Source of the DNA: Protofrankia sp. CiT1
GTDB lineage: Bacteria; Actinomycetota; Actinomycetes; Frankiales; Frankiaceae
Direction: 5' to 3'
DNA length: 52,206 nt
Assembly: GCF_917627385.1 (NCBI RefSeq)
Contig: NZ_CAKJTL010000122.1
Location: forward strand, 1-52,206
The notes beneath the pieces were generated by a model that was not told where the DNA came from, searched no databases, and saw nothing but the letters and a program-made list of their open reading frames with translations. The position numbers were made by a program, and so were the translations under genes. Of the stretch, positions 9,042-31,275 are shown one piece after another; the stretch's first letter is position 1, and the number at the start of each line of letters is the position of its first letter.

Positions 9042-9079
9042 GCCGTCGGCGCGCTCACTGCCGCGCTCGCGCCGACGGC
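9042..9079. other. Perfect 12-bp inverted repeat in the nifD-nifK gap
   Basis: Arms 9042-9053 (GCCGTCGGCGCG) and 9068-9079 (CGCGCCGACGGC) are exact complements around a 14-base loop. The repeat abuts the left end of the MITE-like element. It would form a stable hairpin in the nifD-nifK transcript. Confidence 0.65.
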
Positions 9080-9081
9080 TA

Positions 9082-9248
9082 GGGCGTGTTTCGAAAGCCA
9101 GCTGTCCGGCTCGCCACGCCCAGGCGGCCCCTGGCCGCGTTCTCGGCCACACCGATACCACTCATCCGGTATCGGTGTGGCCCGCGGCCTTGCCAGGAAC
9201 CGCCTGAACGCGGCTCCCTGATCGAACGACAACTTTCGAAACACACCG
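9082..9248. mobile_element. MITE-like element, copy A, between nifD and nifK
   Basis: About 167 bp with terminal inverted repeats: left end from CTAGGGCGTGTTTCGAAAG (9079-9097), right end CTTTCGAAACACACCGTAG (9233-9251), agreeing at 17 of 19 positions. The centre has a 13-bp perfect hairpin (9147-9159 with 9168-9180). Much of the interior, such as GTCCGGCTCGCC and GCCTTGCCAGG, aligns with copies B and C elsewhere in the window. It is the most diverged of the three and its target duplication is not clean. It has no coding capacity. Confidence 0.75.
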
Positions 9249-9255
9249 TAGGGGC

Positions 9256-10716
9256 CTACGCGGCGGCCGTGGACCAGGGCGCCTGGAACAAGTTCCAGGT
9301 CGGGCTGTTGATCGCGATGTCCATGTCGCGGGCGAACACGGCGAAGCCGTCGACACCGTGGTATGGGCCGGAGTAATCCCAGGAGTGCATCTGGCGGAAG
9401 GGAAGCCCCATCTTGTGGAAGACGTACTTCTCCTTCACGCCGGCACCCATCAGGTCGGGCCGCAGCCGGCGGGCGAACTCTTCCAGCTCGTAGGCGCTCG
9501 GGTCGTCGTAGATCACGACGCCCTCGCCGAGCTCGGGGTTGGTGCGGCTGTAGTCATCCTTGTGGGCGAACTCGTAGCCGGTACCGATGATCTCCATGCC
9601 GAGATCCTCGTAGGCGCCGATGGTGTGCCGCGGGCGCAGGCCACCGACGAGCAGCATCACCCGCTTGCCCTCCAGCCGCGGCCGGTACTCGTTGCGCACC
9701 AGGTCGAACAGAGGCTGGTAGCTGGCGATCGCGGCCTCGGTCTTCTCCTTGATCGTGTCATCGAAGAACGACGCGATCTTCCGCATCGACTCAACAATCT
9801 TGGTCGGGCCGAAGAAGTTGAACTCGGTCCACGGAGTGCCGAAACGCTCCTCCATCGTGGTGCAGATGTAGTTCATGGACCGGTAGCAGTGAATCAGGTT
9901 CAGCTTGGTGAGGTGGCTGGTGGACAGCTCGTTGAGCGTGCCGTCGCCGGACCACTGGGCCACCACCCGCAGGCCCATGTCCTCCAGAATGCGCCGGGAT
10001 GCCCACGCGTCGCCACCGATGTTGTAGTCACCGATCAGGGCGACGTCATATGCGGTCTGCTTGGTGGTGTCCCGGGTGCCGAGCACGATGTCCCGGATGG
10101 CGTCGTTGGCGATGTGGTGGCCCAGCGACTGGCTGACGCCGCGGAAACCCTCGCACTTCACCGGGACGACCGGCATGTCCAGTTCCTTCGACGCCTCGCG
10201 GGCGACCGCGTCGATGTCGTCACCGATCAGGCCGATCGGGCACTCGGACTGGATGGAGATACCTTTGGCCAGCGGAAACAGCTCGGAGATCTCCTTGCAG
10301 ATCGCGGCGAGCTTCTTGTCACCGCCGAACACGATGTCGCGTTCCTGGAAGTCGCTGGTGAACTGGAACGTGACGAAGTTGTCGACGCCGCGGGTACCGT
10401 GCGAGTAGTTGCGCCGGGAGGCCCAGGAGTACTGGCCGCAGCCCACCGGGCCATGGCTGATATGGACCATGTCCTTGATCGGGCCCCACACCACGCCCTT
10501 GGAACCGGCGTAGGCGCAGCCGCGGATCGTCATCACACCAGGACGCGACTTGATGTTGGACTTGACCTCGCACTCCTTCGACCCGTCAGGGTCGTTGGGC
10601 TTGATGTGCTTGGCCCGGAACTTCGCGGCCTTGGCCGGATACCCGGCGAGAACATCGTCGATCATTGCCTGGGTGCCGGCGACCGGCGTCCCGGGGGGAG
10701 TCACAGGAGGAGTCAC
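9256..10716 (-). CDS. nifD: Nitrogenase MoFe protein alpha chain NifD
   Basis: NifD, 486 aa, carries the FeMo-cofactor. P-cluster ligands are Cys67 (TIRGCAYAG), Cys93 ([10 protein letters not shown]) and Cys159 ([12 protein letters not shown]). FeMo-cofactor ligands are Cys285 ([13 protein letters not shown]) and His444 ([10 protein letters not shown]); the substrate-channel histidine lies in [11 protein letters not shown]. It starts at GTG 10716 with AAGG upstream, 31 bp after nifH. All catalytic residues are intact, so the enzyme should be active with molybdenum. Confidence 0.98.
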
Positions 10717-10747
10717 GACAGACCTTTCTGATGAGAAGTTCGCCTGG

Positions 10748-11674
<927 letters not shown>

Positions 11675-12847
11675 TCAGGTAGCCGTGCTGGTACAGACAG
11701 CCGTGCTGGTACAGGTGACGGAAACCTGGAACCGCTCGTAGAGATCGCGGATCTCGTCCGAGCGCAACGGGCGCTTGAGCATGCAGACCTGCGAGCGCAG
11801 ACCCTCCAGGACCGGTCCGAGAACGCGCTCGTCCGCATCGATCCCGTGCTTGCGCAGGGCGTGGCGCACCGACGCCCGCCCCGCGTGCTTGCCCACGACC
11901 AGGCGGCGCCGGGCGCCGACCTCAGCGGGGTCGAAGGGCTCGTAGAGGCTGGGCGCCTTGAGCACCCCGTCCACGTGGATACCGGACTCGTGCATGAACG
12001 CCGCCCCACCGACGACGGCCTTCCCGCACGGCACCGGACGGCGTGCCGCGCGCGAGACCAGGGCCGCGAGCGCCCGGAAGGACGTGGTGTCCAGGCCGGC
12101 CCTGAGGCCGAACAGGTGGCGCAGCGCCATCGCCACCTCCTCCATGGGCGCGTTGCCGGCCCGTTCACCCAGCCCCGCCACCGTGGTGCTGACGAACCCG
12201 AAGCCCGCCCGGACCGCCGCGAGCGTGTTGGCGGTGGCGAGACCGAAGTCGTCATGGGCGTGGATCTCCCAGTTGGCGGGCACCGCGCCCACCAGCTGGG
12301 ACGCGCGGGCCCAGGCGCCGAAAGGCTCGAGGACCCCGACGGTGTCGGCCCAGCGCAGGCGGTCGACACCATCGCGGGACAGTTCGCCCGCGAGCTCGAT
12401 GACGAAGCCGTCGTCCGCCCGCGAAGCATCCTCAAACCCGACCCCGACCAGCAGGCCCAGGTCGAGGGCGGCGGCGGCGCACTCGCGGATCCGGGTACGC
12501 GCCCACGCCCGGTCACGACCGAACTTGTGCGCAAGGTGCAGGTCGGAGACGGGGATACTGATGTGAACGCGACGGACGCCAGCGGTGACCGCCGCGTCGA
12601 TGTCGGACCGCATCGCCCGGCACCAAGCGACGATCTCCGCCCGCAGCCCGGCGGACGCGATACGACGCAGTACTTCGCGCTCGGCCGAGCCCATGGCCGG
12701 CACGCCCGCCTCGATCTGCTGTACCCCCGCCTGGTCGAGCGCGACGGCGATGGCGAGCTTCTCCTCGGCCGTGAAGGCAACTCCCGGGGCCTGCTCACCA
12801 TCACGCAGGGTGGTGTCACAGAACCCGATCACGCTGTCGTGCCTCAC
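11675..12847 (-). CDS. nifV: Homocitrate synthase NifV
   Basis: NifV, 390 aa, condenses acetyl-CoA and 2-oxoglutarate to homocitrate, the organic ligand of FeMo-cofactor. It has the family start [17 protein letters not shown], the metal-site [16 protein letters not shown] and [15 protein letters not shown]. It starts at GTG 12847 with GGAGGG five bases upstream. nifV directly ahead of nifH is the Frankia arrangement and suggests homocitrate is made with the enzyme rather than supplied by the plant. The C-terminus contains an 18-bp tandem duplication (11681-11714) encoding [11 protein letters not shown]. Confidence 0.97.
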
Positions 12848-12969
12848 AGTTGCCCTCCGTCGGTCGAAAAGGAAGGTGGCGAGATGCGCGGGCCCGCGGT
12901 CAGCTGTCCGCGACCGGTGGCGACCTCCGCGGGCCTCGCCGTTGAAGCGCCGCGATTAGGAATGTCGTC

Positions 12970-13231
12970 CACCGTTGTTTCACGCTCTTTAAGCGCCGTA
13001 TCTTCGCAGTAACGTTTCGGCCGCATCCGCGATTCTGGGACGAATAGCTGAGGAGCCCCGGGCCGGGTGTCGAAAAGCCCTGGGACCAACGGTGCGAGCG
13101 CCTGGCGCCACATGGTTCACCGCCGGTCGTCACCGGACCCGCCGGCACAATACGACAGCTTGTCTTCGCACTATTGTTTTACGCTCGGAAGCCGTGACCA
13201 AATATCGTGGACAGCCAACTTGGGACGAATG
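12970..13231 (-). promoter_or_regulatory. Duplicated two-box motif upstream of nifV
   Basis: Two composite direct repeats lie 120-385 bp upstream of the nifV start. Box I is ATTCGTCCCA on the minus strand, exact at 13222-13231 and 13036-13045. Box II is GAGCGTRAAACAAYRGTG on the minus strand, at 13169-13186 and 12970-12987 (15 of 18 identical), preceded in both by ACGGC. Box I to ACGGC is 26 bp in one copy and 36 bp in the other. This could be a repeated activator site or two related promoters; the function is inferred from position only. Confidence 0.55.
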
Positions 13232-13331
13232 AACCAGCACCCGCGGGCCAATGACCCGAACAGTTTTTCAAACGCCCCGGAGAAGTCTGCCCCGGGGCAC
13301 GGGCATGACAAACAGTGGCGAGCACAACAAA

Positions 13332-13382
13332 GGCGTTCCCCGGTCGCGGGCGTTGTGACGACGCCGACGACCGGGGAACGCC
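13332..13382 (-). terminator. Rho-independent terminator of the oxidoreductase operon
   Basis: Perfect 15-bp arms GGCGTTCCCCGGTCG (13332-13346) and its complement (13368-13382) lie about 90 bp past the beta-subunit stop. On the minus strand the stem is followed by TTTGTTGTG. This should end the two-gene operon before the nifV promoter region. Confidence 0.75.
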
Positions 13383-13436
13383 AGGGATCAGTGCACCGCG
13401 GGTCTGGGAAAGCGAAGGATCACGTCATACCGATGA

Positions 13437-13471
13437 ATCGGTGGATCGGTGGATCGGTGGATCGGTGGATC
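13437..13471. repeat. Octanucleotide tandem repeat at the end of the beta-subunit gene
   Basis: The unit ATCGGTGG is repeated four times plus three bases (13437-13471), ending on the stop codon of the beta-subunit gene. It is too short and has no spacers, so it is not a CRISPR. Copy number may vary between strains. Confidence 0.85.
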
Positions 13472-14504
13472 AGGCGAGCGTCCAGGTGTTGCCCGCGTGC
13501 AGCAGCTCGGAAAGCAGCTCATCGGGCGTCGATTCCGTGCTGCCCGCCCGCGCGGAGGTGTTCTGCTCCGCCACCATGGCCTCGTACGAGGGCCGGTGCA
13601 CCCGGCGGAACACCCCGATCGGGGTGTTGCTCAGATCGGAGTCGGACAGCCGAGACAGGGTGAAGGCGTAGGCCGGGCCCGCGACCGTCTCGTCGTGAAC
13701 GATGATCTCGCTGCGGGGGACGTTGGCGGTGTCCGCGACCTCGAGCCCGAAACCACGCGGCTCGCGCACGACGCACTTCTCCCCCGACCCGCCGAACGTG
13801 ATCGGCTTACCGTGCTCCAGACGGACCAGCACCGAGTCGCGGCTGGCCGGGTCCTTCAGCACGTCGAACGCACCGTCGTTGAAGATGGCACAGTTCTGGT
13901 AGATCTCGATGAAGGCGCTGCCCTCGTGCGCGGCGGCGGCACGCAGCACCGAGTGCAGGTGCTTGCGGTCGGAGTCGATGGTACGGGCCACGAACGACGC
14001 CTCCGCGCCGAGCGCGAGCGCGATCGGGTTGAACGGGGTGTCGCGGGAGCCGACCGGCGTCGACTTGGTGACCTTGCCGAACTCCGACGTGGGCGAGCAC
14101 TGCCCCTTGGTCAACCCGTAGATCCGGTTGTTGAACATCAGGATCTTGAGGTTGACGTTACGGCGGAGTGCGTGGATGAGGTGGTTGCCGCCGATCGACA
14201 GCGCGTCACCGTCACCGCTGACGACCCATACCGACAGGTCTGGACGGCTGACCGCGAGACCCGTCGCGATCGCCGGTGCCCGGCCGTGGATCGAGTGCAT
14301 GCCGTAGGTGTTGAGGTAGTACGGGAACCGGGACGAACAGCCGATCCCGGAGACGAACGTGATCCGCTCACGCGGGATGCCCAGCTCCGGCATGAACGAC
14401 TGGATGGCCGACAGGATCGCGAAGTCACCGCATCCCGGGCACCAGCGGACCTCCTGATTCGACCTGAAGTCCTTGGCGGTGAGTTTGACGGGCACTTCAG
14501 TCAT
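13470..14504 (-). CDS. korB: 2-oxoacid:ferredoxin oxidoreductase, beta subunit (KorB type)
   Basis: A 344-aa thiamine-diphosphate subunit of a CoA-dependent 2-oxoacid:ferredoxin oxidoreductase, probably for 2-oxoglutarate. It has WCPGCGDFAILSA, VSGIGCSSRFPYY, HGRAPAIATGL and the TPP motif VSGDGDALSIGGNH followed by NNRIYGLTKGQ. It overlaps the alpha-gene stop by eight bases. Actinobacterial two-gene enzymes of this form have a fused gamma-alpha chain plus this beta chain. Being just upstream of the nif genes, it may provide low-potential ferredoxin for nitrogenase; pyruvate as substrate cannot be excluded. Confidence 0.9.
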   Translation of the reverse strand: MTEVPVKLTAKDFRSNQEVRWCPGCGDFAILSAIQSFMPELGIPRERITFVSGIGCSSRFPYYLNTYGMHSIHGRAPAIATGLAVSRPDLSVWVVSGDGDALSIGGNHLIHALRRNVNLKILMFNNRIYGLTKGQCSPTSEFGKVTKSTPVGSRDTPFNPIALALGAEASFVARTIDSDRKHLHSVLRAAAAHEGSAFIEIYQNCAIFNDGAFDVLKDPASRDSVLVRLEHGKPITFGGSGEKCVVREPRGFGLEVADTANVPRSEIIVHDETVAGPAYAFTLSRLSDSDLSNTPIGVFRRVHRPSYEAMVAEQNTSARAGSTESTPDELLSELLHAGNTWTLA

Positions 14505-16341
14505 TACGCACGACCTCCTCGAGAACTGTCTCCAGCTCGGCCGAGGTGAACGGCTGGCCGTTGACCTTGTTGTAGGACACGCTGTCGATCAGGTAGCGCT
14601 CCCGGACCACATGGGCGAGCTGGCCGAGGTTCATCTCCGGGATCACGACGCGGTCGTAGCTGGCGAGCACCGCACCGACGTTCTTCGGCATCGGCGCGAT
14701 GTGACGCAGATGCGCCTGGGCGATGGAGACCCCGCGTTCCCGCAGCTTGCGGCAGGCGGCACCGATCGGCCCGTAGGTGGAGCCCCAGCCGAGCACCAGC
14801 ACCCGGGCAGTACCCGAAGGATCCTCAACCTCAAGGTCAGGCACGTCGATCGCCTCGACCCGGGCCGCGCGCAGCCGCATCATCAGGTCGTGGTCGGCCG
14901 GCACATAGGACACCGCGCCGGTACGGTCCGCCTTCTCCAGCCCACCGATGCGGTGTTCCAGGCCGGGTGTGCCCGGCACCGCCCAGGGGCGGGCCAGCGT
15001 GTGCGGGTCGTGCAGGTAGGGCAGGAACGTGCCGTCGGGGCCGTTGGGCTCGGTCGCGAACTCCACCCGCAGGTCGGGCAGGTCCGCCGGATCCGGCAAC
15101 AGCCACGGCTCGGAGCCATTGGCCAGGTAGCCGTCGGAGAGCAGGATGACCGGCATCCGGTAGGTCAGCGCGATGCGCGCCGCCTCCAGCGCCGCGTCGA
15201 AACAGTCCGCCGGTGAGCGGGCCGCGATCACCGCGAGCGGCGCCTCACCGTGCCGGCCGAACAGGGCGATGTTCAGGTCGGACTGCTCGGTCTTGGTCGG
15301 CAGGCCGGTCGACGGGCCGGCCCGCTGCACGTCGACGATGACCAGCGGAAGCTCCAGCATCACCGCGAGGCCGAGGGTCTCGGTCTTGAGCGCCAGCCCC
15401 GGGCCGGAGGTCGAGGTGACACCGAGCGCACCGCCGTAGGAGGCACCCAGCGCCGAGCCGACCGCAGCGATCTCGTCCTCGGCCTGGAAGGTGGTCACGC
15501 CGTAGCGCTTGTACCCGGACAGCTCGTGCAGGATCTCCGAAGCCGGGGTGATCGGATAGGCACCCAGGAAGAGCGGCAGGCGAGCCCGCAGGGCCGCGGC
15601 GGCCAGGCCGTAGGCGAGCGCCGAGTTGCCGTTGACGCTGCGGTAGGTGCCGGGCTCCAGCTTCGCGGGCTTGACCTCGTAGCGGACGGCGAAGTCCTCG
15701 GTGGTCTCACCATAGTTCCAGCCGGCCTGGAACGCGGCCACGTTCGCGGCGGCCAGCACCGGCTTCTTGGCGAACTTCTGCTTGAGAAACTCGACCGTGC
15801 CCTCGGTGGGCCGGCTGTACATCCACGACAGCAGACCGAGGGCGAACATGTTCTTCGCCCGCTCGGCGTCCTTCTTGGCGACGTCGAGATCGGCGAGCGC
15901 GGCGACCGTCGCGGTCGTCAGCGGCACCCGGTGCACCGTGTACCCGTCGAGCGAGTCGTTCTCCAGTGGATTACTCGTGTAACCGACCTTCTCAAGATTA
16001 CGCGGGGTGAACTCATCTGTGTTGACAATGATCTCCGCATTCGGCGGCAGATCGGCAAGATTGGCCCGCAACGCCGCCGGGTTCATCGCCACCAGTACAT
16101 CCGGCGAGTCACCGGGGGTGAGGACGTCATGGGCGGCGAAATGCACCTGGAAGCTGGACACGCCGTGCAGCGATCCTGATGGGGCGCGGATCTCGGCGGG
16201 GTAGTTGGGCAGGGTGGACAGGTCGTTTCCCAGGATGGCGGTCTCGGAGGCGAAACGGTCGCCGGTGAGCTGCATGCCGTCGCCGGAGTCACCGGCGAAC
16301 CGGATTGCCACCCGGTCCAGATGCTGGATCTGCTTGGCCAC
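14497..16341 (-). CDS. korA: 2-oxoacid:ferredoxin oxidoreductase, fused gamma-alpha subunit (KorA type)
   Basis: A 614-aa subunit. The N-terminal gamma domain starts with RVAIRFAGDSGDGMQLTGDR and runs to about residue 200. The alpha domain follows (NGNSALAYGLAAAALRARLP, YPITPASEILHEL, EDEIAAVGSALGASYGGALG, TSGPGLALKTE). The start was set at GTG 16341 because AGGAGG lies nine bases upstream; the frame stays open further but without a better site. Together with the beta subunit it would oxidise a 2-oxoacid to acyl-CoA and CO2 while reducing ferredoxin. Confidence 0.9.
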   Translation of the reverse strand: MAKQIQHLDRVAIRFAGDSGDGMQLTGDRFASETAILGNDLSTLPNYPAEIRAPSGSLHGVSSFQVHFAAHDVLTPGDSPDVLVAMNPAALRANLADLPPNAEIIVNTDEFTPRNLEKVGYTSNPLENDSLDGYTVHRVPLTTATVAALADLDVAKKDAERAKNMFALGLLSWMYSRPTEGTVEFLKQKFAKKPVLAAANVAAFQAGWNYGETTEDFAVRYEVKPAKLEPGTYRSVNGNSALAYGLAAAALRARLPLFLGAYPITPASEILHELSGYKRYGVTTFQAEDEIAAVGSALGASYGGALGVTSTSGPGLALKTETLGLAVMLELPLVIVDVQRAGPSTGLPTKTEQSDLNIALFGRHGEAPLAVIAARSPADCFDAALEAARIALTYRMPVILLSDGYLANGSEPWLLPDPADLPDLRVEFATEPNGPDGTFLPYLHDPHTLARPWAVPGTPGLEHRIGGLEKADRTGAVSYVPADHDLMMRLRAARVEAIDVPDLEVEDPSGTARVLVLGWGSTYGPIGAACRKLRERGVSIAQAHLRHIAPMPKNVGAVLASYDRVVIPEMNLGQLAHVVRERYLIDSVSYNKVNGQPFTSAELETVLEEVVRND

Positions 16342-16827
16342 GTACGTGGACCTCCTCAATGACCGACGGTCGGCGAGGGTGCATACCCACTGTTCTACAG
16401 CGAGTAGAGCGAACCATGCGGATCGCCCGTCCTTCTTATACGGAGACATTGCTTCAGCGGTGTTTCGCACTGTCAAATCGCCATCTCGCGAAGCGGGCGT
16501 TCCAGCTCACGTCAAATTCGACAACAGCAACGTCACATATATCTCCGGACGTGCGGAAAAAGCCTCGCTCATTGTGCGGACAACACCTTCCGCGGGACCT
16601 TCGGGAGCCAATAGCGGAAAGACGTTTCCCGCCACGGGGGACCACCGCCCCCGCTCTCGCGGCGGCGAAGGTCGGGCGTCTGCCGGTAACCGGCCCACCA
16701 GGGTGTGGCTGGCACCACCTGCCCGGCGGATACGAAAAGTATCCAGCTCATCCGGACCGGTCATCAGTCATCGGTTAACGGCCAGCGGCGGCAGGCGGCA
16801 GGCGGCAGGCGGCGCGCTCTCCCCCGG
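16342..16827. other. Intergenic region upstream of the oxidoreductase operon
   Basis: No convincing gene was found in 486 bp; a minus-strand frame at 16507-16764 (85 codons) has no ribosome site or recognisable content. It holds a possible third copy of the nifV Box II motif and a 7-bp GC repeat (about 16786-16815, unit GGCGGCA, roughly four copies). Confidence 0.6.
16455..16472 (-). promoter_or_regulatory. Possible third Box II motif, upstream of the oxidoreductase operon
   Basis: CAGTGCGAAACACCGCTG on the minus strand matches the nifV-proximal Box II (12970-12987) at 13 of 18 positions, including GAAACA. It lies about 115 bp ahead of the alpha-subunit start and overlaps the hexamer TTGACA (16471-16476, minus strand). 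It suggests, but does not prove, co-regulation with nifV. Confidence 0.3.
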
Positions 16828-21481: not shown

Positions 21482-21676
21482 TCATCACACAACGTCAGTC
21501 GGCAGTCAGCCCGCGGAACGATCTTTTGCTCTTCGCCAAGGAACGCCGCAGCAAGCACGCTCCGGAGCACGGCGCGCGCTAACGTGACAGATCCATACCG
21601 TAGGATCGCTTCCGGTGGCTGATCGCGGCGGGAGGCGGCCTCATTTTCCCAGTCCAGAGGGTTGGGTGAGCCGGCA

Positions 21677-23365
21677 GTGGCCCGTGTCAGTCAACGCGCC
21701 GAGCAGCGGCAGCTTCGTGGTCGGATGCGCGAGTTCGGTATGAGCCATGACGAGATCGCCGGTGAGTTCGGACGGCGGTTCCGCTTCCGGCCGCGAGCCG
21801 CGTTCCGGCACGCGTTCGGGTGGACGCTCCAGGAGGCCGCCGACGCGATCAATGCTCAGGCAGCGAGCCTCGGGCTCGATCCGGTGGGCCGGGCGAGCAT
21901 GACGGGGCCGCGGCTGTCGGAGCTTGAGTCGTGGCCGGCTTCGGGGGCGCGGCGGCCCACCCCGCAGATCCTCGCCCTGCTCGCGCACGTGTATGGCACG
22001 GGCATCCATCATCTTCTCGACCTTGAAGACCGCGAGCACCTGGCACCCGCGGACCTTCTTCTCCTCGACAGCTGCGTGCGCGAGGTCAGCGCGGCGCGCG
22101 GCCGGCCGCCGGCCACGTCAGCCGGCGCCGTTCGTGGTCGCGACACTCCTCGGTGGCCCGGGGCTGCGGGCGGGCTGCCGCAGCCTGCGCTTCTGCCGGC
22201 ATTCGTGGACAATGAGCCAATATCCAAGCCTCCTGCCGTGCGTTCGCGGACGCCGGTGTCTGTCGGGGTCGAGGGAGAGGGGTCACCGACGAAGCGTCGC
22301 GAGGTTCTCGCTGCTGCGGGCGCGTCTGCCGTCACGGCCTTACTCGCCCAGTCGGCGGTGGAGTCGGCGATGTTCGGGCAGCGCTGGGAGGAGTCCGATC
22401 TCGGCTCGACGACGCTGGAGCACCTTGATCTGGAGGTGCAGCGGTTCGGCCTGTCCTACTTGCATACGCCGCCCGAGCAGCTGTTCGTCCAGGTCCGCGA
22501 GTGCCGGCAGCGGGTCTCCGTGATGGCGGCGGGCCGACAGACGCTGAGCCAGCGGCAGCGCCTGTGTGTCGTCGGTGGATGGCTGTCGGGACTGATGGGG
22601 CATCTGGCGCTCGATCTCGGTGACAGCGCCGTGGCGCACGCGCACTGCCTGACGGCGTGGCAGCTCGCCGTGGAGTCCGGCGACGCCCGGCTGGGCGGGT
22701 GGGTCCGAGGAACCCAGGCGATGATCGCCTTTTACACCGGCGACGCGACGGACGCGTTACGTTACGCCCTGGCTGGCCTGGACGTCGCCCCGCGGAACTC
22801 CTTCGTCCAGACTCGACTTCTCGCGGCCCATGCGCGCCTGGGTGATGCCGACGGTGTCAGCGTCGCGTTCGCCCGTGCGGAGGGCTCCTTCGAGTCGGTG
22901 ACGGAGAAGGCCTCGCACAGCATCTTCTCCTTCGACTACCCCTACCTGCCGTTCTACGCCGGCACGGCCTACACGGCGCTCGGCCGGCCCGAGAAGGCGC
23001 GGACCTTCGCCCAGCAGGCGGTGACGTTGTGCGACGCGACGGCGGTGAACTGGCCGGTCGCGCGGGCCCTGGCCCGGGTCGACCTCGCGCTCGCCGCGGT
23101 GCGACAGAAGGAACCGGACAGAGCGTGCGCCGTGACCGTCGAGGCGCTGGAGATCTGCGCGACCGAACGCCCGGTGGATCTGATCGTTCGCCGCACTGGT
23201 GAGGTCGTGCGGGAGCTGCGCCCCTACCAGGAGCTGTCGGCCGTCCGCGACCTACGTGAGCGCCAGATGAACCTGTCCCGCACGGTCCGCAGCATGCAGC
23301 GGCGGGCCCCTTCCAACCCCGGCGCCGGTTCAGCGGCACATGATCGACAGGCGGACATCCTCTAG
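21677..23365 (+). CDS. XRE-family transcriptional regulator with tetratricopeptide-like C-terminus
   Basis: A 562-aa regulator common in Frankia and Streptomyces. The N-terminus has RMREFGMSHDEIAGEF and RAAFRHAFGWTLQEAADAIN, a helix-turn-helix-like region, then LSELESWP. A hinge rich in Pro and Gly (about 140-210) leads to an all-helical region with alternating Ala/Leu helices that resembles TPR repeats (LALDLGDSAVAHAHCLTAWQ, YTALGRPEKARTFAQQA). The start was set at GTG 21677 by family pattern; TTG 21662 is possible. Its stop overlaps the start of the SDR gene by one base, so the two are probably coupled. Confidence 0.8.
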   Translation: MARVSQRAEQRQLRGRMREFGMSHDEIAGEFGRRFRFRPRAAFRHAFGWTLQEAADAINAQAASLGLDPVGRASMTGPRLSELESWPASGARRPTPQILALLAHVYGTGIHHLLDLEDREHLAPADLLLLDSCVREVSAARGRPPATSAGAVRGRDTPRWPGAAGGLPQPALLPAFVDNEPISKPPAVRSRTPVSVGVEGEGSPTKRREVLAAAGASAVTALLAQSAVESAMFGQRWEESDLGSTTLEHLDLEVQRFGLSYLHTPPEQLFVQVRECRQRVSVMAAGRQTLSQRQRLCVVGGWLSGLMGHLALDLGDSAVAHAHCLTAWQLAVESGDARLGGWVRGTQAMIAFYTGDATDALRYALAGLDVAPRNSFVQTRLLAAHARLGDADGVSVAFARAEGSFESVTEKASHSIFSFDYPYLPFYAGTAYTALGRPEKARTFAQQAVTLCDATAVNWPVARALARVDLALAAVRQKEPDRACAVTVEALEICATERPVDLIVRRTGEVVRELRPYQELSAVRDLRERQMNLSRTVRSMQRRAPSNPGAGSAAHDRQADIL

Positions 23366-24144
23366 TGGATCTTCATCTGAACGGCAAGGTCGCGCTCGTC
23401 ACCGGTGGCTCTCGCGGCATCGGCCGGGCGATCGCGTCCCGCCTTGCGTCCGAGGGCTGCCGGGTCGGGATCTGCGGACGCGACTCCGACGCCCTCGCCC
23501 AGGCCGCAGCGAGCCTCGGCCTGGGCGACTCGGACGTCTTCAGCCTGATCGCCGACGTGACCCAGCCTGGCCAGGTCGAACGGTTCGTCGAGGAGGCAGC
23601 CAATCGCTTCGGAGGCGTCGACCTGTTGGTCGCGAACGTCGGTGGCACCGTCGGAGGAGACCTTCTCGACTCGACCCCTGAAGACTGGGCGCAGACGTTC
23701 GACCTCAACGCCGGCCACGCCGTCCGAGCCATCCGCACGGCCGTCCCGCACATGAAGAATAACGGCGGCGGATCGGTCGTCATCGTCTCGTCGATCTCGG
23801 CCTCGAAGCCGTCGCCCCGGGCACAGTACGGGGCAGCCAAGGTCGCAGAGATCTACCTGGCCTCAGCCTTCGCCCGGGAGCTGGGGCCGTTCAACGTGCG
23901 GGTCAACGCGGTGAGCCCCGGGTCCATCCTCTTCCCCGGCGGCGGCTGGGAGAACTACGCCCGCCAGCATCCGGAGGACTTCGAGACCTTCGTACACCGG
24001 GACTTCCCCGCGCACCGGCTCGGCACAGCCGAGGAAGTCGCGGACGTGGTGACCTTCCTGCTCTCCGACCGGGCCAGCTGGGTCAACGGAGCCGACATCG
24101 CCGTCGACGGTGCTCAAGGCCGGCCGAGCGCCCGCGGGTACTGA
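23365..24144 (+). CDS. Short-chain dehydrogenase/reductase
   Basis: A 259-aa classical SDR. The NAD(P) motif TGGSRGIG is at residues 13-20, NVGG replaces the usual NNAG at 91-94, and the catalytic set is in VSSISAS with Tyr155 and Lys159 (YGAAK). The end has HRLGTAEEVADVVTFLLSD and WVNGADIAVDG. The start is GTG 23365 within the stop of the upstream regulator gene (TAGTG). The substrate is unknown; a role tied to that regulator is likely. Confidence 0.88.
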   Translation: MDLHLNGKVALVTGGSRGIGRAIASRLASEGCRVGICGRDSDALAQAAASLGLGDSDVFSLIADVTQPGQVERFVEEAANRFGGVDLLVANVGGTVGGDLLDSTPEDWAQTFDLNAGHAVRAIRTAVPHMKNNGGGSVVIVSSISASKPSPRAQYGAAKVAEIYLASAFARELGPFNVRVNAVSPGSILFPGGGWENYARQHPEDFETFVHRDFPAHRLGTAEEVADVVTFLLSDRASWVNGADIAVDGAQGRPSARGY

Positions 24145-24453: not shown

Positions 24454-25431
24454 CTAGCCCCCAGGCAGGAGGGCGGTGGCAGCCGCGCGGGCGAGAACGG
24501 CCTGGCTGGTGGCGGACAGGCCGAACCGGTTCCACTGGAAGATCAGCACATGGGTGAGGATCGCCCGGAGTCCGCGGCCGAGCTTTGTCTGTGCGGCGGC
24601 GTCGCCGAGTTGACGGCCGGCGGTGTCGAAGGCGGTGAGCCAGGGGGCGGCATGCGCGACCGGCCCGCCGGAGGCGAACAGGTCGCTGGTGGGCAGGTCG
24701 GGGATGGACAGAAGCAGCCGCACGTTCGCGGCGAGCTGAGCGATCTTCGGGTGGTCGGCGGCCGGTGAGACGGGACGTAGCCCGGCGACCCGGGCGAAGA
24801 CGTCGCCGCGTTCAAAGGTGTCGAGGCCAGCCGCCTGTAGGAGGCCGTTGATCAGCAGGATCGAGAGTTCGCGGCGGCCGAGGCCGGGGGTGTCGTGGCG
24901 CAGGTAGTCGAGGACGCCGCGGCTGTCGGCGCAGAACAGCTCATGGACGGCGTTCATCCCGGTTGGGCCGCCGAAGGCGAAGGTTTCCGGTTCGTAGACC
25001 GTCGACCACCAGCGAGTGAGTGCTCCGGTGGCGGTCAGCTCATCGAGCACTTGGTCGACGGCCGTGGTGTCCGCGCGGTGCAGGCGGAGCCGCCAGCAGG
25101 GGTGCTTGCGCAGGAACCACCAGCCGCCGACCGCGCCGCCGGCCTGGAGCTGGTCCAGGCGTGGGCCGAGCTGTGTGGCGGCGGTGGCTTCGGCGGTGGA
25201 CCAGTCGGGGAACTGGACCCGTACCTGGTAGCAGTTCTGGTCGGCGCGCTGTTCAAGCGCCGCGAGTCCAGCCGCCTGGTAGACCCGTACCGCGTCGGCC
25301 AGGTCGGAGGGACTGAGCGCGTTGCTGGTGGCTGTGGCGTGCAGGTCGGCGCCGGCGAGCACCGCGATGACGCCGGCAGCGAGGTCTTGGGGGGCGGTGA
25401 TGCTCAGGCTATGAGCAGACATGTGTCCCAT
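24454..25431 (-). CDS. Stand-alone thiopeptide/lanthipeptide biosynthesis SpaB_C domain protein
   Basis: A 325-aa protein of the SpaB C-terminal / thiopeptide-type biosynthesis family (TIGR03891-like), which catalyses glutamate elimination in LanB enzymes or cycloaddition in thiopeptide pathways. Typical stretches are WWFLRKHPCWRLRLH, ELTATGALTRWWSTVYEPET, FGGPTGMNAVHELF and LLINGLLQAAGLD. The 1035-aa LanB encoded upstream already ends in such a domain, so this is a second copy with an unknown task. It starts at ATG 25431 (or ATG 25422), overlapping the LanC gene by 28 bases, and is the last gene of the operon. Confidence 0.85.
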   Translation of the reverse strand: MGHMSAHSLSITAPQDLAAGVIAVLAGADLHATATSNALSPSDLADAVRVYQAAGLAALEQRADQNCYQVRVQFPDWSTAEATAATQLGPRLDQLQAGGAVGGWWFLRKHPCWRLRLHRADTTAVDQVLDELTATGALTRWWSTVYEPETFAFGGPTGMNAVHELFCADSRGVLDYLRHDTPGLGRRELSILLINGLLQAAGLDTFERGDVFARVAGLRPVSPAADHPKIAQLAANVRLLLSIPDLPTSDLFASGGPVAHAAPWLTAFDTAGRQLGDAAAQTKLGRGLRAILTHVLIFQWNRFGLSATSQAVLARAAATALLPGG

Positions 25432-26588
25432 CCCGTGCGTGGCGGTCCGACATGTCGGGTGGATTCCAGCGCCAGAGCGACCCCGGCGGCGCCGGTCAGC
25501 AGCCCGCTGTCCTGCCCGCTGGAGGTGGAAGAGGCGGTGGCGTGCCGCGCGAGCCGGGTGGCGATCGTGGGAAGCCGGCGGCCGATGGCGGAGCTTCGCG
25601 CGTCACGGGCGGCTCGATAGGCGGTTTGGTAGATCCCGGCCAGGCCGTGGCACAGGCCGAGATCGCTGATCCGGTCGAGCTGGGAATCGGTCAGAGCGGC
25701 GGCGAGGATGGCCTCGGCGTCCTGTGCCCGTCGATGATCGTGGATGGCGAGGGCGGCAAGCTGCTGAGCGCGGACGATGCCGATCGTGCCGTAGCACCAG
25801 GAGAGGCGGCCGGGGCTGGTCTGGGTGGGGCGGCCGGTGCGCAGATCCTCGCGGGTGATCCACTGCGGCCACCAGGGGCCGTCCGCGCCGTCTTGGCGCC
25901 ACTGGTCGAACCAGTCGGTCAGGGTGGCTATCGCTTCGTCCTGGCCGTCGACCAGGCTCCTTTCCGCGGCGGCGAGAGCGAGGAAGGCGAGCAGGCCGGC
26001 CGCGCCGTGTGCCATGCCGAGGTTCGCGTGCCCACCCGGGGTCGGCAGAGCGTCGTCCGGGTCATGTGCGACCCACCAGCCCGGCGGATCAACGCCGTTC
26101 TCGCGACGTGGCCGGGTCAGGCTGACCGTGTACCGCAGGAGGTCGGCGAGGATCTCACTGTCGGGGTGGCTGCGGAGCAGGAGGGCGCCGATGCCGGTCA
26201 GGCCGTAGAACAGGTCGTATTCGGCGAACGTGGTGGGCTCGCCGCGTTCGGCTCTGCTGGCAGCGAGGGTCAGCCGCTGGCGGGTCAGACGCAGCACGTG
26301 GGTGTCCAGCGTGTCGCGGGCGCTGCGGTAGCGGGGATTCCCGTCGGCGGCGGCGTGCAGGAGGAAGGCGAGGGCGGGCGCCCCGTAGTACAGGCCGGTG
26401 TGCTCGGCGGCGTCGACCGGCCCGGCGACGGCCCGCCGGATGTGGGCCTGCGCGGTGCCCCAGCTGCCCGAGCCGGTCCGGGCCCGCTCGATGTGCAGGA
26501 GCGCCGTCCCGGCCGGGCCTCGGGCCAGGGACTGTCTGACCGCGTCGTCGGTGGAGAACGTCTCCACCGCGGCGGCGCCGGGGGTCAC
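25404..26588 (-). CDS. Lanthionine synthetase LanC (cyclase)
   Basis: A 394-aa LanC that closes thioether rings by adding cysteine thiols to dehydrated Ser/Thr. Zinc ligands are Cys265 (SWCYGTIG), Cys313 and His314 (GLCHGLAGIY); the catalytic histidine is in GMAHGAAG (194). The alpha-toroid repeats GLYYGAPA, LFYGLTGIG and GLLTGAAGV are visible. It starts at GTG 26588, overlapping the LanB stop (GTGA), so LanB and LanC should be made together. Confidence 0.93.
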   Translation of the reverse strand: MTPGAAAVETFSTDDAVRQSLARGPAGTALLHIERARTGSGSWGTAQAHIRRAVAGPVDAAEHTGLYYGAPALAFLLHAAADGNPRYRSARDTLDTHVLRLTRQRLTLAASRAERGEPTTFAEYDLFYGLTGIGALLLRSHPDSEILADLLRYTVSLTRPRRENGVDPPGWWVAHDPDDALPTPGGHANLGMAHGAAGLLAFLALAAAERSLVDGQDEAIATLTDWFDQWRQDGADGPWWPQWITREDLRTGRPTQTSPGRLSWCYGTIGIVRAQQLAALAIHDHRRAQDAEAILAAALTDSQLDRISDLGLCHGLAGIYQTAYRAARDARSSAIGRRLPTIATRLARHATASSTSSGQDSGLLTGAAGVALALESTRHVGPPRTGWDTCLLIA

Positions 26589-29500
26589 CGGGCACCGGCC
26601 AGGGCAAGGTGGCGCAGTGCGGCGGCGCGGGCGAGGCGCCCGGTCTCCTTCTCCAGGGTGGGATCGACACCGACAGCGCGCACATGGTGCTCGTGCAGGA
26701 GGGTCCGCAGCACCGTCCGCGGATCACGCTGCCGCACGAGGGTCTGGTAGTACAGGGCCAGCGCGGTGGCTCGGGCGTTCCAGGCTCGGACGACTGCCTC
26801 ACCGCCGGCCAGCGCACGAACCGCCTGGTGCTCGCTACCGGGTTCGGCCAGGTCGAGAGCTTGGTCCCGCAGGGTCCGGTCCAGGGCCCCGTGCTCCTGC
26901 CAAAGGCAGGCGACGAGTGCCCGGTACCCGGCCGGCGGGTCGAGGGCGAAGGAGGCGGCCAGGTCCACCATCGATGCCGCGGCCAGGGCCTGGGCGGAGA
27001 TCCCGGACGTCTGGGCCGTCGTGATCTGGGCGATGGCGCAGAGGGTGTCGGCAGCGAACACCGACTCGGCGGCGGCCAGAGCGTCACCGTCGCCGTAGCG
27101 GGCGGTGTGCTGCGGAGAGGTGGCCAGGGTGAGCTGGTTGGGAAGGCCGCGGCTCTCCAGGTCGGCTGCGAAGGCGGCCACAGCGGCGGAGACCGGCCCG
27201 TAGTGGTCTGGGCTGTGCAGGCGCAGGAGCACCGCAAGGTACTGATCACTCTCAGGAAGGATCATGTCGCGGTGTCGCCGGACCCACCACAGCCCGACAA
27301 GCCCTTCCATGCTGGCGACCAGCCTCGGCAGGTGGCCGGTGAGGATGTCGTCGAACCGGGCTGGGTTTCCGACGAGCTGCACCTGCAGCAGCGCCGAGTT
27401 ACCCGGGCGAAGGACCGCTCCCGGCGCTGCGGTCACGGGCAGTGGCCGTGCCGGTGGGCTGATCGCGGTCAACGGGATCAGCAGCTCGGCCGGCCGGCCT
27501 ATCCAGCCCTGCGCGTCGGGCGGACCGTCCTCCTGCACCTCGATGCGGCCGGCCCGCTCCAGGTGGGTCAGCAGCAGCGCCCGGTCCAGATGACGGTCCA
27601 GGTCAAGGGATAGGCGAAGCTCGCCGTGGCAGAGCACGACCCGTGCGGGCACGCGCCACCGGTGCCGCCAGGCGCACAGGGCTTCCTGCTGTCCGTCGCC
27701 TGACTGGCTACGGGGCAGGTCGGTGGAAGTGAGGATCCAGCGGGCGACGGCCAGCACCGTGCGGCCGTAGCGGATGCGCGGGACGTAGGGCAGGACGCGG
27801 GCCGCGCCGAGGTCGAGCCCGCCGAACACGGCGCTGCGGGCATCGGCGACCTCGGCGAGGAAGCGGGCCAGCGGCGGGCTCTGCACGCTGGTGTCCAGCG
27901 CGTGCGGAATTCGAGGGATCACCCGCCGGCCGGTGGAGCGCTGCACCAGGTACATCTGCGCGCCGTCGGCGGTGACCGCCAGATCGTCAAGTCCGATCAG
28001 CTTGACCTCGGGGCGGCCGGGGTCAGGATGCTCCGAGAGGGAGACGACGTCCGGCAGCAGCGGTTCGACACGCGCCACGTTCTCGTTGTGCGGACGGCGC
28101 GGCGGGAAGGACAGCTGCGCCGCCAGCGGCTGGTCCCGCTCCCCCGCCTTCGCCCTGGCTGTGTACGTCGCGGCCAGCCGGTCGCGGTCGGCCGGATCGA
28201 GCAGGTGGGCGAACCGTCCGGCCATACTGGTGTGCGTCCGCGGGGCGGCGGTGACCCGCAGCCGGAAGTCCCCGCGGTCGAGCGCACGGGTCGAGACCGC
28301 CCACACCTCGACACCGAGCTCGACCCGCTGCGGCGGCACGATGTCCTGGTGCTCCCCGACAGCCAGTTCCTCGACGTCCGCGTCGGTCAGCGCGATCTCC
28401 TCGGCCCCGTCCACGGCGGCCTGCTGGATCAGGGTCAGGAGCGCGGTGTCGCGGTCGGTCAGCATCCGCCAGGCAGGCCTCGCTCGCGGTGCACCGAGAT
28501 ACCCGCCGGGATAGCCCAGCCCCGACTCGGCAACCAGCTCCCGAACCGGAACCAGAGCGCCGGGGCCGTAGCGGGCCCGGAACCGCGCGTGATAGTCCAG
28601 CCAGGCTGTCGAGCCGAACGGCTGGCGGGACAGCCGCAGCAGCACGCTGGCCGCGAGCGCCGCCTCGGTGAGAACCCGCTCGGGGACGGCGATCTGCGCG
28701 TCGAGCCGGGTGTCGACCGCGAGCATCTGGCCGGCTCGCGGTGCAAGCGAGGTCATCCGCGCGGCGACCGTCCGGCGCGTCTGCGCGGCCTGCTGCGGAT
28801 CATTCGTGCGGTTGTGAGCGTTCAGCATGGCGCGGAGGCTGTCGAGTTCCCGCAGCAGGTCGCTCACGTCGGTCAGGCCCTCCGGGCCAGCTGCGCGTAA
28901 CGCGTCGGCCAGATGGGTCAGGGCATCGACGGCTGTCATCGGTGGTCGCAGGTTCGTGATCAGAAGGCCGCCGTCGACCAGACCGTGTACCAGCGCGCGG
29001 ATCTTGTCCGGGGAGGCGGTGGGGAACCTGGTTGCCGTCCGTGCGACGAGCGCGTCCAGCTGGATCGGGTTGCCGGCCTCCGCCAAGGCGAAGCGGACCG
29101 GTCGGGTCAGCCGTACAGACGACTCTCGCAGCGGCCCCGGGCTCGAGGCACCCGCCTCGGCCCGCCGGTGCACGATGACCCGACCGTCGCGCACGATCCG
29201 CGCGCTGTCGGCCACCACCGTCAGCCGCCCACGCAGCTCCGGATGCCCTTCGAGCTGATCGACGAGCGCCGTGACCCACTCGGCGTCCGCGCGTGCCACG
29301 GCTTGATGTGCGCGTCCCACCTCGGCGGTAGCCGGCCCGACGGTCGCGGTGCTGATGCCGGCGAACATTCCGAACGGTGTCGCGCGCCGCTGCCACCGCA
29401 GTAGGTAGGACGCCACGGCGGTGAGGGCTCGCCGGACCTCCGTCCCGGACCGCCGTCCGGCACCGTCGTCAAGGATCTGCTCGACGCGGGTACAGAGATC

Positions 29501-29692
29501 GGTACTCGCCAGTAGCAGCGCCGCCCGCACCTCCGGGTGCGCCCAGGTCTTGGACAGCCATGCCCGGCCTTCCTGCTCGACCGCGGCGGAGTCGGACCGA
29601 TCGAGATCAGTCGGCAGTTCGAGGCCGCCCGGGTCCGTCGAAGCGCGGACCTGGATGAAGCTGGTGTGCTGGTAGCGCGGGGGCACGGCCAT
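26585..29692 (-). CDS. Class I lanthipeptide dehydratase LanB
   Basis: A 1035-aa LanB. The N-terminal two thirds form the glutamyl-tRNA-dependent glutamylation domain (SFIQVRASTDP, YLLRWQRRATPFGMFAGIST, YHARFRARYGPGALVPVREL). The final third is the SpaB_C elimination domain (LWWVRRHRDMI, LAVLLRLHSPDHYGPVSAAV). It would dehydrate Ser/Thr in the precursor core. It starts at ATG 29692 after GAGAGGGGATC, 79 bp downstream of the precursor gene. No gene for a dedicated transporter or protease follows. Confidence 0.93.
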   Translation of the reverse strand: MAVPPRYQHTSFIQVRASTDPGGLELPTDLDRSDSAAVEQEGRAWLSKTWAHPEVRAALLLASTDLCTRVEQILDDGAGRRSGTEVRRALTAVASYLLRWQRRATPFGMFAGISTATVGPATAEVGRAHQAVARADAEWVTALVDQLEGHPELRGRLTVVADSARIVRDGRVIVHRRAEAGASSPGPLRESSVRLTRPVRFALAEAGNPIQLDALVARTATRFPTASPDKIRALVHGLVDGGLLITNLRPPMTAVDALTHLADALRAAGPEGLTDVSDLLRELDSLRAMLNAHNRTNDPQQAAQTRRTVAARMTSLAPRAGQMLAVDTRLDAQIAVPERVLTEAALAASVLLRLSRQPFGSTAWLDYHARFRARYGPGALVPVRELVAESGLGYPGGYLGAPRARPAWRMLTDRDTALLTLIQQAAVDGAEEIALTDADVEELAVGEHQDIVPPQRVELGVEVWAVSTRALDRGDFRLRVTAAPRTHTSMAGRFAHLLDPADRDRLAATYTARAKAGERDQPLAAQLSFPPRRPHNENVARVEPLLPDVVSLSEHPDPGRPEVKLIGLDDLAVTADGAQMYLVQRSTGRRVIPRIPHALDTSVQSPPLARFLAEVADARSAVFGGLDLGAARVLPYVPRIRYGRTVLAVARWILTSTDLPRSQSGDGQQEALCAWRHRWRVPARVVLCHGELRLSLDLDRHLDRALLLTHLERAGRIEVQEDGPPDAQGWIGRPAELLIPLTAISPPARPLPVTAAPGAVLRPGNSALLQVQLVGNPARFDDILTGHLPRLVASMEGLVGLWWVRRHRDMILPESDQYLAVLLRLHSPDHYGPVSAAVAAFAADLESRGLPNQLTLATSPQHTARYGDGDALAAAESVFAADTLCAIAQITTAQTSGISAQALAAASMVDLAASFALDPPAGYRALVACLWQEHGALDRTLRDQALDLAEPGSEHQAVRALAGGEAVVRAWNARATALALYYQTLVRQRDPRTVLRTLLHEHHVRAVGVDPTLEKETGRLARAAALRHLALAGAR

Positions 29693-29771
29693 GGCGATCC
29701 CCTCTCCTCGCCGGTGCGGGATCCGCCGTCGGCACCCAAGTCGGGCAGGTACCGACGGCGGGACGGCTAGA

Positions 29772-29963
29772 TCAGGACGGGTCGTTGGAGGAGGTGCTGC
29801 ACGCGCTGGTGCTGCAGCTCTGGCCGCAGCCGTCGCTCGTGTCGCACATCATGATCACGATCCGGGTGGTGGACTCCACCACCCGCATGTCCAGTTCCAG
29901 CTCCGCGTCGTCGAGCGCGAAGTCCACGGACTCCGCCTGGTCGGCCATCAGCACCGGCGACAT
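29772..29963 (-). CDS. FxLD-type lanthipeptide precursor
   Basis: A 63-aa precursor. The leader contains the FxLD motif (DFALDD, residues 14-19) and ELELDMRVVES; the core begins near residue 35. The core has four cysteines (40, 46, 50, 55) among many Ser/Thr: CDTSDGCGQSC, then STSACSTSSNDPS to the end, enough for up to four thioether rings. It starts at ATG 29963 with AAGGAG eight bases upstream. It lies between the methyltransferase and LanB genes, the order of known FxLD clusters. Asp41, Asp44 and Asp61 are candidate sites for the encoded methyltransferase. Confidence 0.9.
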   Translation of the reverse strand: MSPVLMADQAESVDFALDDAELELDMRVVESTTRIVIMMCDTSDGCGQSCSTSACSTSSNDPS

Positions 29964-30027
29964 CGAGATCACTCCTTGTTCTGGTGGGGGATTTCTCGGG
30001 TGGGTGGTGCGTCCTGGACCGGCCAGG

Positions 30028-31275
30028 TCAGTCCGCGACCGGCCAGGAGATCGAGACCAGGCCGTGGGTCTTCGCCAGCACGGCCGTGCCCTCGCCGGCC
30101 GGCGGACGGTCGGTGCCCGTCGGCCAGTAGGCGAAGGTCGGGGCCGGTCCGCCCCATGCCTGGCGATCCCAGGCCTGGATCTGCTTGACGAGCGCGGTGG
30201 CAGCGGCCTCGCCGTGCGGGCCGTACGCTCGCCCGCCGAACTCGACCCCGGCGCCGTCCAACGCCGGGCGCACCGCCAGATAGGCGAACGAGTCGCCCTG
30301 CACGGCCCCGAAGGGGAACCAGCTCTTGCGGTCGGCAGCCAGGTCGGTTCCCTCGTCCGCCGCCAGCCGGCAGAAGCCCGGCAGGAAGCAGGCGAACCAC
30401 AGATGCAGGTCGGCGAACGACACTCCGTGCCGGATCGTGACCCCGGAGCACACCTCGGTCCGCGGTGTCGCGAGGACACCGTCCAGAAGATCCAGATCCT
30501 GGGGCGGGTCGGCGTCGAACCGCAGCCGGACGTGACGGCCGTGCCCGTCAGGCAGGAGGAAGACCCGCTCGTCATGGGCGCCGGCACCCTGCATGGGGAC
30601 GAACCCGCACACCTCGGCCGAGGTGCTCACCAGGTGATCGCCGTCGCGGCGAAACCCGATCGATCGGGTGATCCCGTTCATCCGCAGCGGTACGACGATC
30701 CGGCCGTCCTCGGCCAGCTGCGCGAGCCACGCCGGCGAGAGGTCCCAGGCACCGGCCGTCACCAGGATCGCGTCGACCCGGTCGCCGAGCTCGGCCACGC
30801 CGTCCTCAGCGTCCGCGCGGATCACCGCGACCCGGTCCGCGTACCCGGTCGTCTCCAGAAGCTCGCGGGCCCGGTCGGTCACCTCGGGATCGATGTCCAC
30901 GCTGATTACCCGGCCCGAGGGACCGACGACCTCGGCGAGGAGCGCGGCGTTGTAGCCACTGGACCCGATCTCGATCACGCTCATCCCGGGACCGAGCCCG
31001 GCCTGTTCGATCATCCGAGCCTGGATGAACGGAGCACTGATCGACGAGATGATCACGTCGTCCGCGGCCCGCTTGACCGCCACCGAGTCGTCGGCATTGT
31101 AGGCAACCTCCAGCGAGGTGCCCTCGGGAACGAACAGGTGCCGCGGCACGGCACGAAACGCCCGCTCCACCTCCAGAGAGGTGATCATGCCGGTCACGCA
31201 GAGCTTGTCCACCAGCGCGTTACGGACCTCAGTCGCCCGGTCCGGGGCGCTGGACGTGCCAGTCATCTGAGTCAA
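30028..31275 (-). CDS. FxLD-system methyltransferase (protein isoaspartyl methyltransferase homologue, LanS type)
   Basis: A 415-aa protein. Residues 1-220 form a protein-L-isoaspartate O-methyltransferase-like domain: MITSLEVERAFRAVPRHLFV, SSISAPFIQARMIEQAGL, the SAM motif VIEIGSSGYNAALLAEVVG, VISVDIDPEV and LVTAGAWDLSP. The C-terminal half is specific to the FxLD methyltransferase family. Characterised LanS(A) homologues methylate an Asp that becomes isoaspartate through a succinimide. TTG 31275 is chosen since AAGGA sits six bases upstream; ATG 31266 is the alternative. It is the first gene of the operon. Confidence 0.88.
   Translation of the reverse strand: MTQMTGTSSAPDRATEVRNALVDKLCVTGMITSLEVERAFRAVPRHLFVPEGTSLEVAYNADDSVAVKRAADDVIISSISAPFIQARMIEQAGLGPGMSVIEIGSSGYNAALLAEVVGPSGRVISVDIDPEVTDRARELLETTGYADRVAVIRADAEDGVAELGDRVDAILVTAGAWDLSPAWLAQLAEDGRIVVPLRMNGITRSIGFRRDGDHLVSTSAEVCGFVPMQGAGAHDERVFLLPDGHGRHVRLRFDADPPQDLDLLDGVLATPRTEVCSGVTIRHGVSFADLHLWFACFLPGFCRLAADEGTDLAADRKSWFPFGAVQGDSFAYLAVRPALDGAGVEFGGRAYGPHGEAAATALVKQIQAWDRQAWGGPAPTFAYWPTGTDRPPAGEGTAVLAKTHGLVSISWPVAD

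Follow-up and report, generated by a model that had tools for sequence, protein, structure and literature searches.

An FxLD lanthipeptide operon of Protofrankia sp. CiT1 combines a full-length LanB lacking the lyase arginine pair with a stand-alone syn-glutamyl-lyase-like protein

Introduction

Which protein would release glutamate from a lanthipeptide core when the full-length LanB of the operon lacks the arginine pair of the NisB lyase site? The question is raised by a class I lanthipeptide operon of Protofrankia sp. CiT1 (contig NZ_CAKJTL010000122.1; the window, i.e., the whole stretch of DNA analysed, is 52,206 nucleotides long), which encodes such a LanB together with a separate SpaB_C protein. 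In PMC9486935, all full-length LanBs are predicted to be anti-lyases. We found no description of full-length LanBs without the Arg pair in the literature, the supplementary network of PMC9486935 lying outside that search. Here, we describe the loss of the pair throughout a clade of LanBs and its association with a separate lyase and with the layout of the core peptide, and we consider a division of dehydration between the two proteins to be the probable explanation.

The operon and the lyase site of LanB

An earlier note on this DNA had described five consecutive minus-strand genes of an FxLD class I lanthipeptide operon. All five are present, open and intact, in the order methyltransferase, precursor, LanB, LanC and SpaB_C, and match curated models:

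30028..31275, minus strand: LanSA-type O-methyltransferase of the FxLD system, a protein isoaspartyl methyltransferase (PIMT) homologue of 415 amino acids (aa; TIGR04364 522.9 bits, PF01135 118.2 bits)
29772..29963, minus strand: FxLD precursor peptide, 63 aa, MSPVLMADQAESVDFALDDAELELDMRVVESTTRIVIMMCDTSDGCGQSCSTSACSTSSNDPS, with the core ...MMCDTSDGCGQSCSTSACSTSSNDPS (TIGR04363 44.8 bits)
26585..29692, minus strand: full-length LanB (PF04738 704.6 bits, PF14028 71.7 bits)
25404..26588, minus strand: LanC cyclase, 394 aa (PF05147 141.5 bits)
24454..25431, minus strand: stand-alone SpaB_C protein, syn-glutamyl-lyase-like, 325 aa, with the domain at approximately residues 65-325 (TIGR03891 189 bits, PF14028 94.9 bits)

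The order methyltransferase-LanB-LanC-SpaB_C recurs in 83 compared loci which, together with the conservation of the precursor, indicates that the operon is more than a chance arrangement. The nearest named relatives of LanB are found in Frankia sp. R82 and AiPa1 (92-93% identity), and comparison with these two strains gives ratios of nonsynonymous to synonymous substitution rates (dN/dS) of 0.11-0.39 for the four enzyme genes. The cluster belongs to the known coi/olv kind of class I lanthipeptide clusters (FxLD, or "lanthimiditide"; this name and the TXDGC motif are from a 2026 review, PMC13001092). From Frankia, class I clusters that include an O-methyltransferase have been known since 2010 (PMC3091789), and the combination of a conserved Asp with a PF01135 methyltransferase corresponds to families I 1-4 of PMC7268733.

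The earlier note had also reported the catalytic motifs of the enzymes as present. This is correct for LanC, the methyltransferase and the glutamyl-transfer half of LanB, in which the motif Y..R...R.TPFG is intact and Tyr96, Arg99, Arg103 and Thr105 are invariant in 24 LanBs. It is not correct for the lyase site of LanB, which we read by profile alignment of the C-terminal domain to NisB (4wd9/6m7y; NisB numbering is used for this domain):

27227..27235, minus strand: codons for Ala-Val-Leu at NisB positions 784-786, where NisB has Arg-x-Arg
27098..27100, minus strand: Arg at the position of NisB Arg826, kept (NisB alignment)
26693..26695, minus strand: His at the position of NisB His961, kept (NisB alignment)

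With Ala in place of Arg784 and Leu in place of Arg786, the residue set of a canonical anti-glutamyl lyase (Arg784/Arg786, Arg826 and His961) is incomplete: the Arg pair is gone. In NisB, the single changes R786A, R826A and H961A each leave the peptide glutamylated, with no elimination (PMC4979651). The predicted fold of the LanB lyase domain is intact (MibB, Z 27.7).

Damaged catalytic residues in LanB or LanC had been named beforehand as grounds for abandoning the operon. LanB has indeed lost its lyase Arg pair, but the loss is clade-wide and no lesion of this genome, and the LanC residues are in place. We rejected damage to LanB or an assembly error, given that the residue change is common to 86 of the 132 LanBs surveyed below and that the genes are under purifying selection.

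The stand-alone SpaB_C protein

The SpaB_C protein had been named in the earlier note, but its syn-glutamyl lyase signature went unrecognised. The key residues lie in one short motif:

25084..25107, minus strand: KHPCWRLR, with Lys109 (syn-lyase Lys) and Arg114 + Arg116 (γ-carboxylate Arg pair), assigned by family conservation

The Lys occupies the position of NisB Tyr776, Ala152 that of Arg826, and an Ile that of His961. The relatives of the protein likewise have Ala at the Arg826 position and a hydrophobic residue at the His961 position, and the Lys, the two Arg, a Tyr and two Glu hardly vary among approximately 140 of them. The SpaB_C hits of four loci (L043, L078, L087 and L136) are of a divergent type, with Arg for the syn-lyase Lys and HEPD for YEPE. 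SptBb and the fused domain of CoiSA show the same pattern, i.e., they keep two γ-carboxylate Arg, lack Arg826/His961 and have Lys for the NisB Tyr (PMC9011353, PMC9486935, PMC9890492). The CoiSA K46A variant accumulates glutamylated peptide (PMC9011353), and the product of SptBb is (E)-dehydrobutyrine (Dhb; PMC9011353, PMC9486935, PMC9890492). In coi-like fusions the syn-lyase Lys is at residue 48-49 of the open frame, in line with CoiSA Lys46. By its residues, the SpaB_C protein of CiT1 is a match to the syn-glutamyl lyase family of the SptBb/CoiSA type. The nearest folds to its AlphaFold2 model (predicted local distance difference test score, 87.9) are LanB elimination domains (NisB Z 20.3, root mean square deviation (rmsd) 3.0 over 222 residues), and dN/dS in Frankia is 0.16-0.20. 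Since the network of PMC9486935 already holds stand-alone syn-lyases beside full-length LanBs, the protein is an added member and not a new kind.

Loss of the arginine pair among LanB relatives

We surveyed 132 distinct LanBs in which the lyase domain could be read, chosen by their likeness to the LanB of CiT1, so that its clade is over-sampled. Arg786 is lost in 86 and kept in 46. All but two of the losers (L062 and L123, a separate loss) belong to one fully supported clade of 85 LanBs, whose named members represent over 25 genera and in which a single LanB (L215) keeps the residue. Almost every keeper has Arg-x-Arg at 784-786 (45/46) and Glu at 823 (45/46), and nearly all have the set Arg, Arg, Glu and Tyr at 784, 786, 823 and 776. 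In the losers, position 823 is mostly Gln or His, Tyr776 is replaced by His in most cases, position 786 is Tyr, Phe, Thr or another residue, and at position 784 Ala, Asp, Val, Ser and Glu predominate; in 24 of the 86 the residue there is acidic, and Asp or Glu at this position would repel a carboxylate. A clade-specific insertion of six residues, RP[DE][AS]DQ, is common among the losers. A further loss, of Arg826 or His961, is seen in 14 of the 86 losers versus none of the 46 keepers (Fisher p = 0.002, without correction for kinship).

An intact, separate syn-lyase accompanies 85 of the 86 LanBs without Arg786. The remaining one (L204, Streptomyces mexicanus) has a 62-residue syn-lyase remnant beside a truncated lanC (3187-3868); the two adjoin as if an internal stretch had been deleted, and the upstream genes are off the contig. 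In Prauserella muralis (L178, a near-copy of another locus), a transposase-type insertion sequence element lies inside lanC at the contig end (9900-12357), and the syn-lyase gene is on another contig. Conversely, all nine clusters without a syn-lyase retain Arg786, Arg826 and His961, so that no intact cluster sampled is without both a syn-lyase and the anti-lyase residues. At five loci (L031, L066, L076, L081 and L090), the LanB has no detected lyase domain; these carry only a syn-lyase-methyltransferase fusion. One of them (L031, 2370-7872) is a second FxLD cluster of the same genome, with a LanB of 716 aa, LanC, the fusion protein and the precursor core MCSTNDTCGSSCPSACTTS; its gene content marks it as a natural split system that is also predicted to be syn-only.

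The loss goes together with a distinct layout of the core. In the loser clade, the gap between Cys2 and Cys3 is at least 4 residues in 52 of 56 cores versus 2 of 32 elsewhere, and 52 of the 56 have Pro as the penultimate residue, in most cases following a tail of 8 residues, versus 3 of 32 elsewhere. In one genome (G193; L033, 1-13257), two FxLD clusters stand side by side with one precursor per core layout, QCSTSDGCGSTCNDGASACNSSIEPPLS and LMRLTDDGCGTTCESACPAQSGC.

Precursor, methyltransferase and cyclase

The precursor scores 44.8 bits against TIGR04363 (cut-off, 30) and has an FxLD-like leader with ELELDMRV. In an alignment of 22 FxLD precursors, Thr42, Asp44, Cys46, Cys50 and Cys55 are invariant. 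The earlier note had expected a core Asp to be converted by the LanS-type methyltransferase, and a suitable residue is present:

29832..29834, minus strand: Asp44 codon, predicted isoaspartate (isoAsp) site, in TSDGC, which is the TXDGC motif (invariant column; PMC13001092)

LanSA enzymes convert Asp to isoAsp within the TXDGC core motif (PMC13001092). The lanthimiditide combination of this motif with a neighbouring LanSA gene is found here, the isoAsp or aspartimide itself being predicted. Conservation of the precursor in related genomes, on which the operon reading had been staked, is high: the peptides of Frankia sp. AiPa1 and R82 share 97-98% identity with it. By the same token, the suggestion that the product is probably new in sequence looks weak, as the identical core is present in at least two further Frankia genomes. 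A phmmer search with a 33-residue FxLD core as query gave no match to the OlvA nuclear magnetic resonance entry.

The methyltransferase is clearly of the LanSA type (522.9 bits against a TIGR04364 cut-off of 320). Its start codon is TTG, with an ATG three codons downstream; it is 96-97% identical to the copies of Frankia sp. R82 and AiPa1 (dN/dS 0.11-0.19), and hits above the family cut-off were obtained in 52 of 196 genomes searched around the source genome. Alignment of LanC with NisC and MadC shows that the zinc ligands (WCYG, LCHG), the AHG and EYD motifs and the catalytic His and Asp are all present. As the earlier note had observed, there is no protease or transporter gene within the cluster, the one part of the genome in which these were looked for; the published coi and olv clusters normally lack them as well (PMC9486935).

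Genomic neighbourhood

The inference of a nitrogen-fixing actinobacterium was borne out by nifB-, nifE/N-type, nifK, nifD, nifH and nifV-like genes at 1188-12847 of the same contig, in a genome of 5.0 Mb. Together with a pyruvate:ferredoxin oxidoreductase-like gene, the nif cluster occupies 1188-16476 of the window, approximately 8 kb from the lanthipeptide operon; nifB carries a fused NifX-like domain, and the nifV-like gene encodes a homocitrate synthase. An NsdA-family tetratricopeptide repeat (TPR) regulator and a short-chain dehydrogenase/reductase (SDR) oxidoreductase adjoin the operon (21662-24144); two further Frankia genomes have them with approximately 95% conservation. For the SDR, the TPR regulator and an upstream small gene, the figure in Frankia sp. 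R82 and AiPa1 is 93-96%, and the regulator is possibly linked to the operon. At 48141-52066, 17 kb from the operon, lie two large neighbouring genes on the minus strand, of which the first is an ATP-binding cassette (ABC) transporter by Pfam; we found no reason to link this pair with export of the peptide. A dedicated seryl-tRNA synthetase beside the cluster was considered and rejected, as the gene is an ordinary serS, and every other hit of the genome to the Pfam domain in question is a single gene on a different contig.

Discussion

We consider it probable that dehydration in this system is split between the full-length LanB and the stand-alone syn-lyase, with the syn-lyase removing all of the glutamate. 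Given its intact N-terminal domain, LanB would move Glu from Glu-tRNA onto Ser and Thr residues of the core. Because Arg784 and Arg786 are replaced, its anti-lyase site would be unable to hold the glutamyl γ-carboxylate and, judging by NisB R786A, would release Glu inefficiently. The SpaB_C protein, with its SptBb/CoiSA signature, would then strip Glu from every modified residue to give dehydroalanine (Dha) and (E)-Dhb, and elimination by this protein only is predicted to give rings of unusual handedness. Leader removal and export would fall to enzymes encoded elsewhere. A precedent for such a division is provided by CoiB-H994A, a LanB with a dead anti-lyase, which together with CoiSA(ED) and CoiC gave 3-fold dehydration (PMC9486935).

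Several observations weigh against this proposal. The product of the CoiB-H994A reaction was not fully or properly cyclised by CoiC (PMC9486935), suggesting a need for the cyclase to be matched to the lyase. NisB with R784A as its only change is nearly active in vivo (PMC4341554), and tolerance of different leaving groups has been ascribed to the lyases (PMC9890492). Arg826 and His961 are retained in approximately 90% of the losers, the LanB C-terminal domain has a dN/dS of 0.31-0.39 in Frankia, i.e., it is under purifying selection, and the conserved insertion and the change of Tyr776 to His indicate that the domain is no mere junk. Besides the over-sampling of the clade, the tree has only 3 changes at Arg786 and 4 for the intact or lost state of the lyase, so that the co-occurrence of the loss with a syn-lyase does not count as statistically independent evidence; with 5 pairs, an independent-pairs test for a link between lyase loss and the presence of a syn-lyase had no power.

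The retained residues and the selection on the domain would also suit a system in which both lyases work, LanB eliminating in anti fashion at some residues and SpaB_C in syn fashion at others, with mixed methyllanthionine (MeLan) stereochemistry; in coi, both lyases act on a single peptide (PMC9486935), and His963 and Arg966 are, like Arg826 and His961, kept in most of the clade. We regard this as rather doubtful, as Arg784, Arg786 and Glu823 are lost jointly, often with an acidic residue at 784, and the additional losses of Arg826 or His961 never occur in keepers. Position 788 is Arg in 51 of 86 losers, but also in 17 of 46 keepers; compensation from this position was therefore rejected as not clade-specific, leaving no clear replacement. 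A split active site made up of LanB Arg826/His961 and the SpaB_C Arg pair was set aside, since the SpaB_C residues are the same where the LanB has no lyase domain.

Because it is under purifying selection, the altered domain is not a plain relic and may serve folding, docking or a new role; simple pseudogenisation is not supported by dN/dS. In a further reading, the release of glutamate is left to the syn-lyase and the LanB C-terminal domain has been repurposed, e.g., to bind the peptide or the syn-lyase, or to act on a different group. The clade-specific insertion and substitutions (Tyr776 to His, Glu823 to Gln or His), a dN/dS well below 1 and the intact predicted fold would fit, but no reaction or partner is known, and conservation within a multidomain protein can reflect the needs of folding alone; we think this unlikely. 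That SpaB_C instead performs another modification, e.g., a cycloaddition like that of the thiopeptide pyridine synthases of the same superfamily, as once suggested for such proteins (PMC7268733), is highly improbable, given that PbtD, TbtD and TsrL are more distant structural neighbours (Z 16-18) than the LanB elimination domains, that the Lys/Arg/Arg signature is that of experimentally tested syn-lyases, and that no thiopeptide genes were seen near the cluster.

The coi cluster of Streptomyces coelicolor A3(2) (CoiA1, CoiB, CoiC and CoiSA; PMC9486935, PMC9011353) shares with CiT1 an FxLD-type precursor with a conserved Thr-x-Asp-Gly/Asn-Cys, a full-length LanB, LanC, LanSA and a syn-glutamyl lyase. 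However, the anti-lyase site of CoiB is canonical and active, whereas the CiT1 LanB is without both γ-carboxylate Arg; the coi syn-lyase is fused to the methyltransferase, whereas that of CiT1 stands alone; and in the CiT1 core Cys2 and Cys3 are further apart, one more Cys is present and the tail of 8 residues ends in Pro-x. The olv cluster of Streptomyces olivaceus NRRL B-3009 (OlvA, OlvB, OlvC and OlvSA; PMC13001092, PMC7268733) shares a LanSA acting on a conserved core Asp and a class I LanB and LanC, but has no syn-lyase, and its LanB is grouped with the canonical anti-lyases (a grouping taken from PMC9486935, not from the OlvB sequence). In spt (SapT; SptBa and SptBb; PMC9011353, PMC9890492), glutamyl transfer and syn-elimination are on separate proteins and the syn-lyase is the sole lyase, as predicted for CiT1. 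SptBa, however, has no lyase domain, whereas the CiT1 LanB retains a folded one minus key residues, and the covered parts of PMC9011353 and PMC9890492 describe no isoaspartyl methyltransferase. The class I clusters described from Frankia by Marsh et al. 2010 (PMC3091789) are from the same genus and have the same set of LanA, LanB, LanC and O-methyltransferase; in the part of the paper covered here we found no discussion of lyase residues or of a stand-alone SpaB_C.

Extending the proposed split from CiT1 to its relatives, we suggest only tentatively that a large clade of full-length LanBs relies wholly on the syn-lyase and that a widespread lanthipeptide family, spread over many actinobacterial genera, has MeLan rings derived entirely from (E)-Dhb, the old domain having been rebuilt for a new role. 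If the clade is syn-only, a large set of lanthipeptides still awaiting characterisation would have rings of a stereochemistry that very few other products are known to share, and predicting structures from the mere presence of a LanB would give wrong results for the clade. Starting from the natural loss of two residues with a known role in NisB, the arrangement offers a direct test of how glutamate release may shift from a domain to a separate protein.

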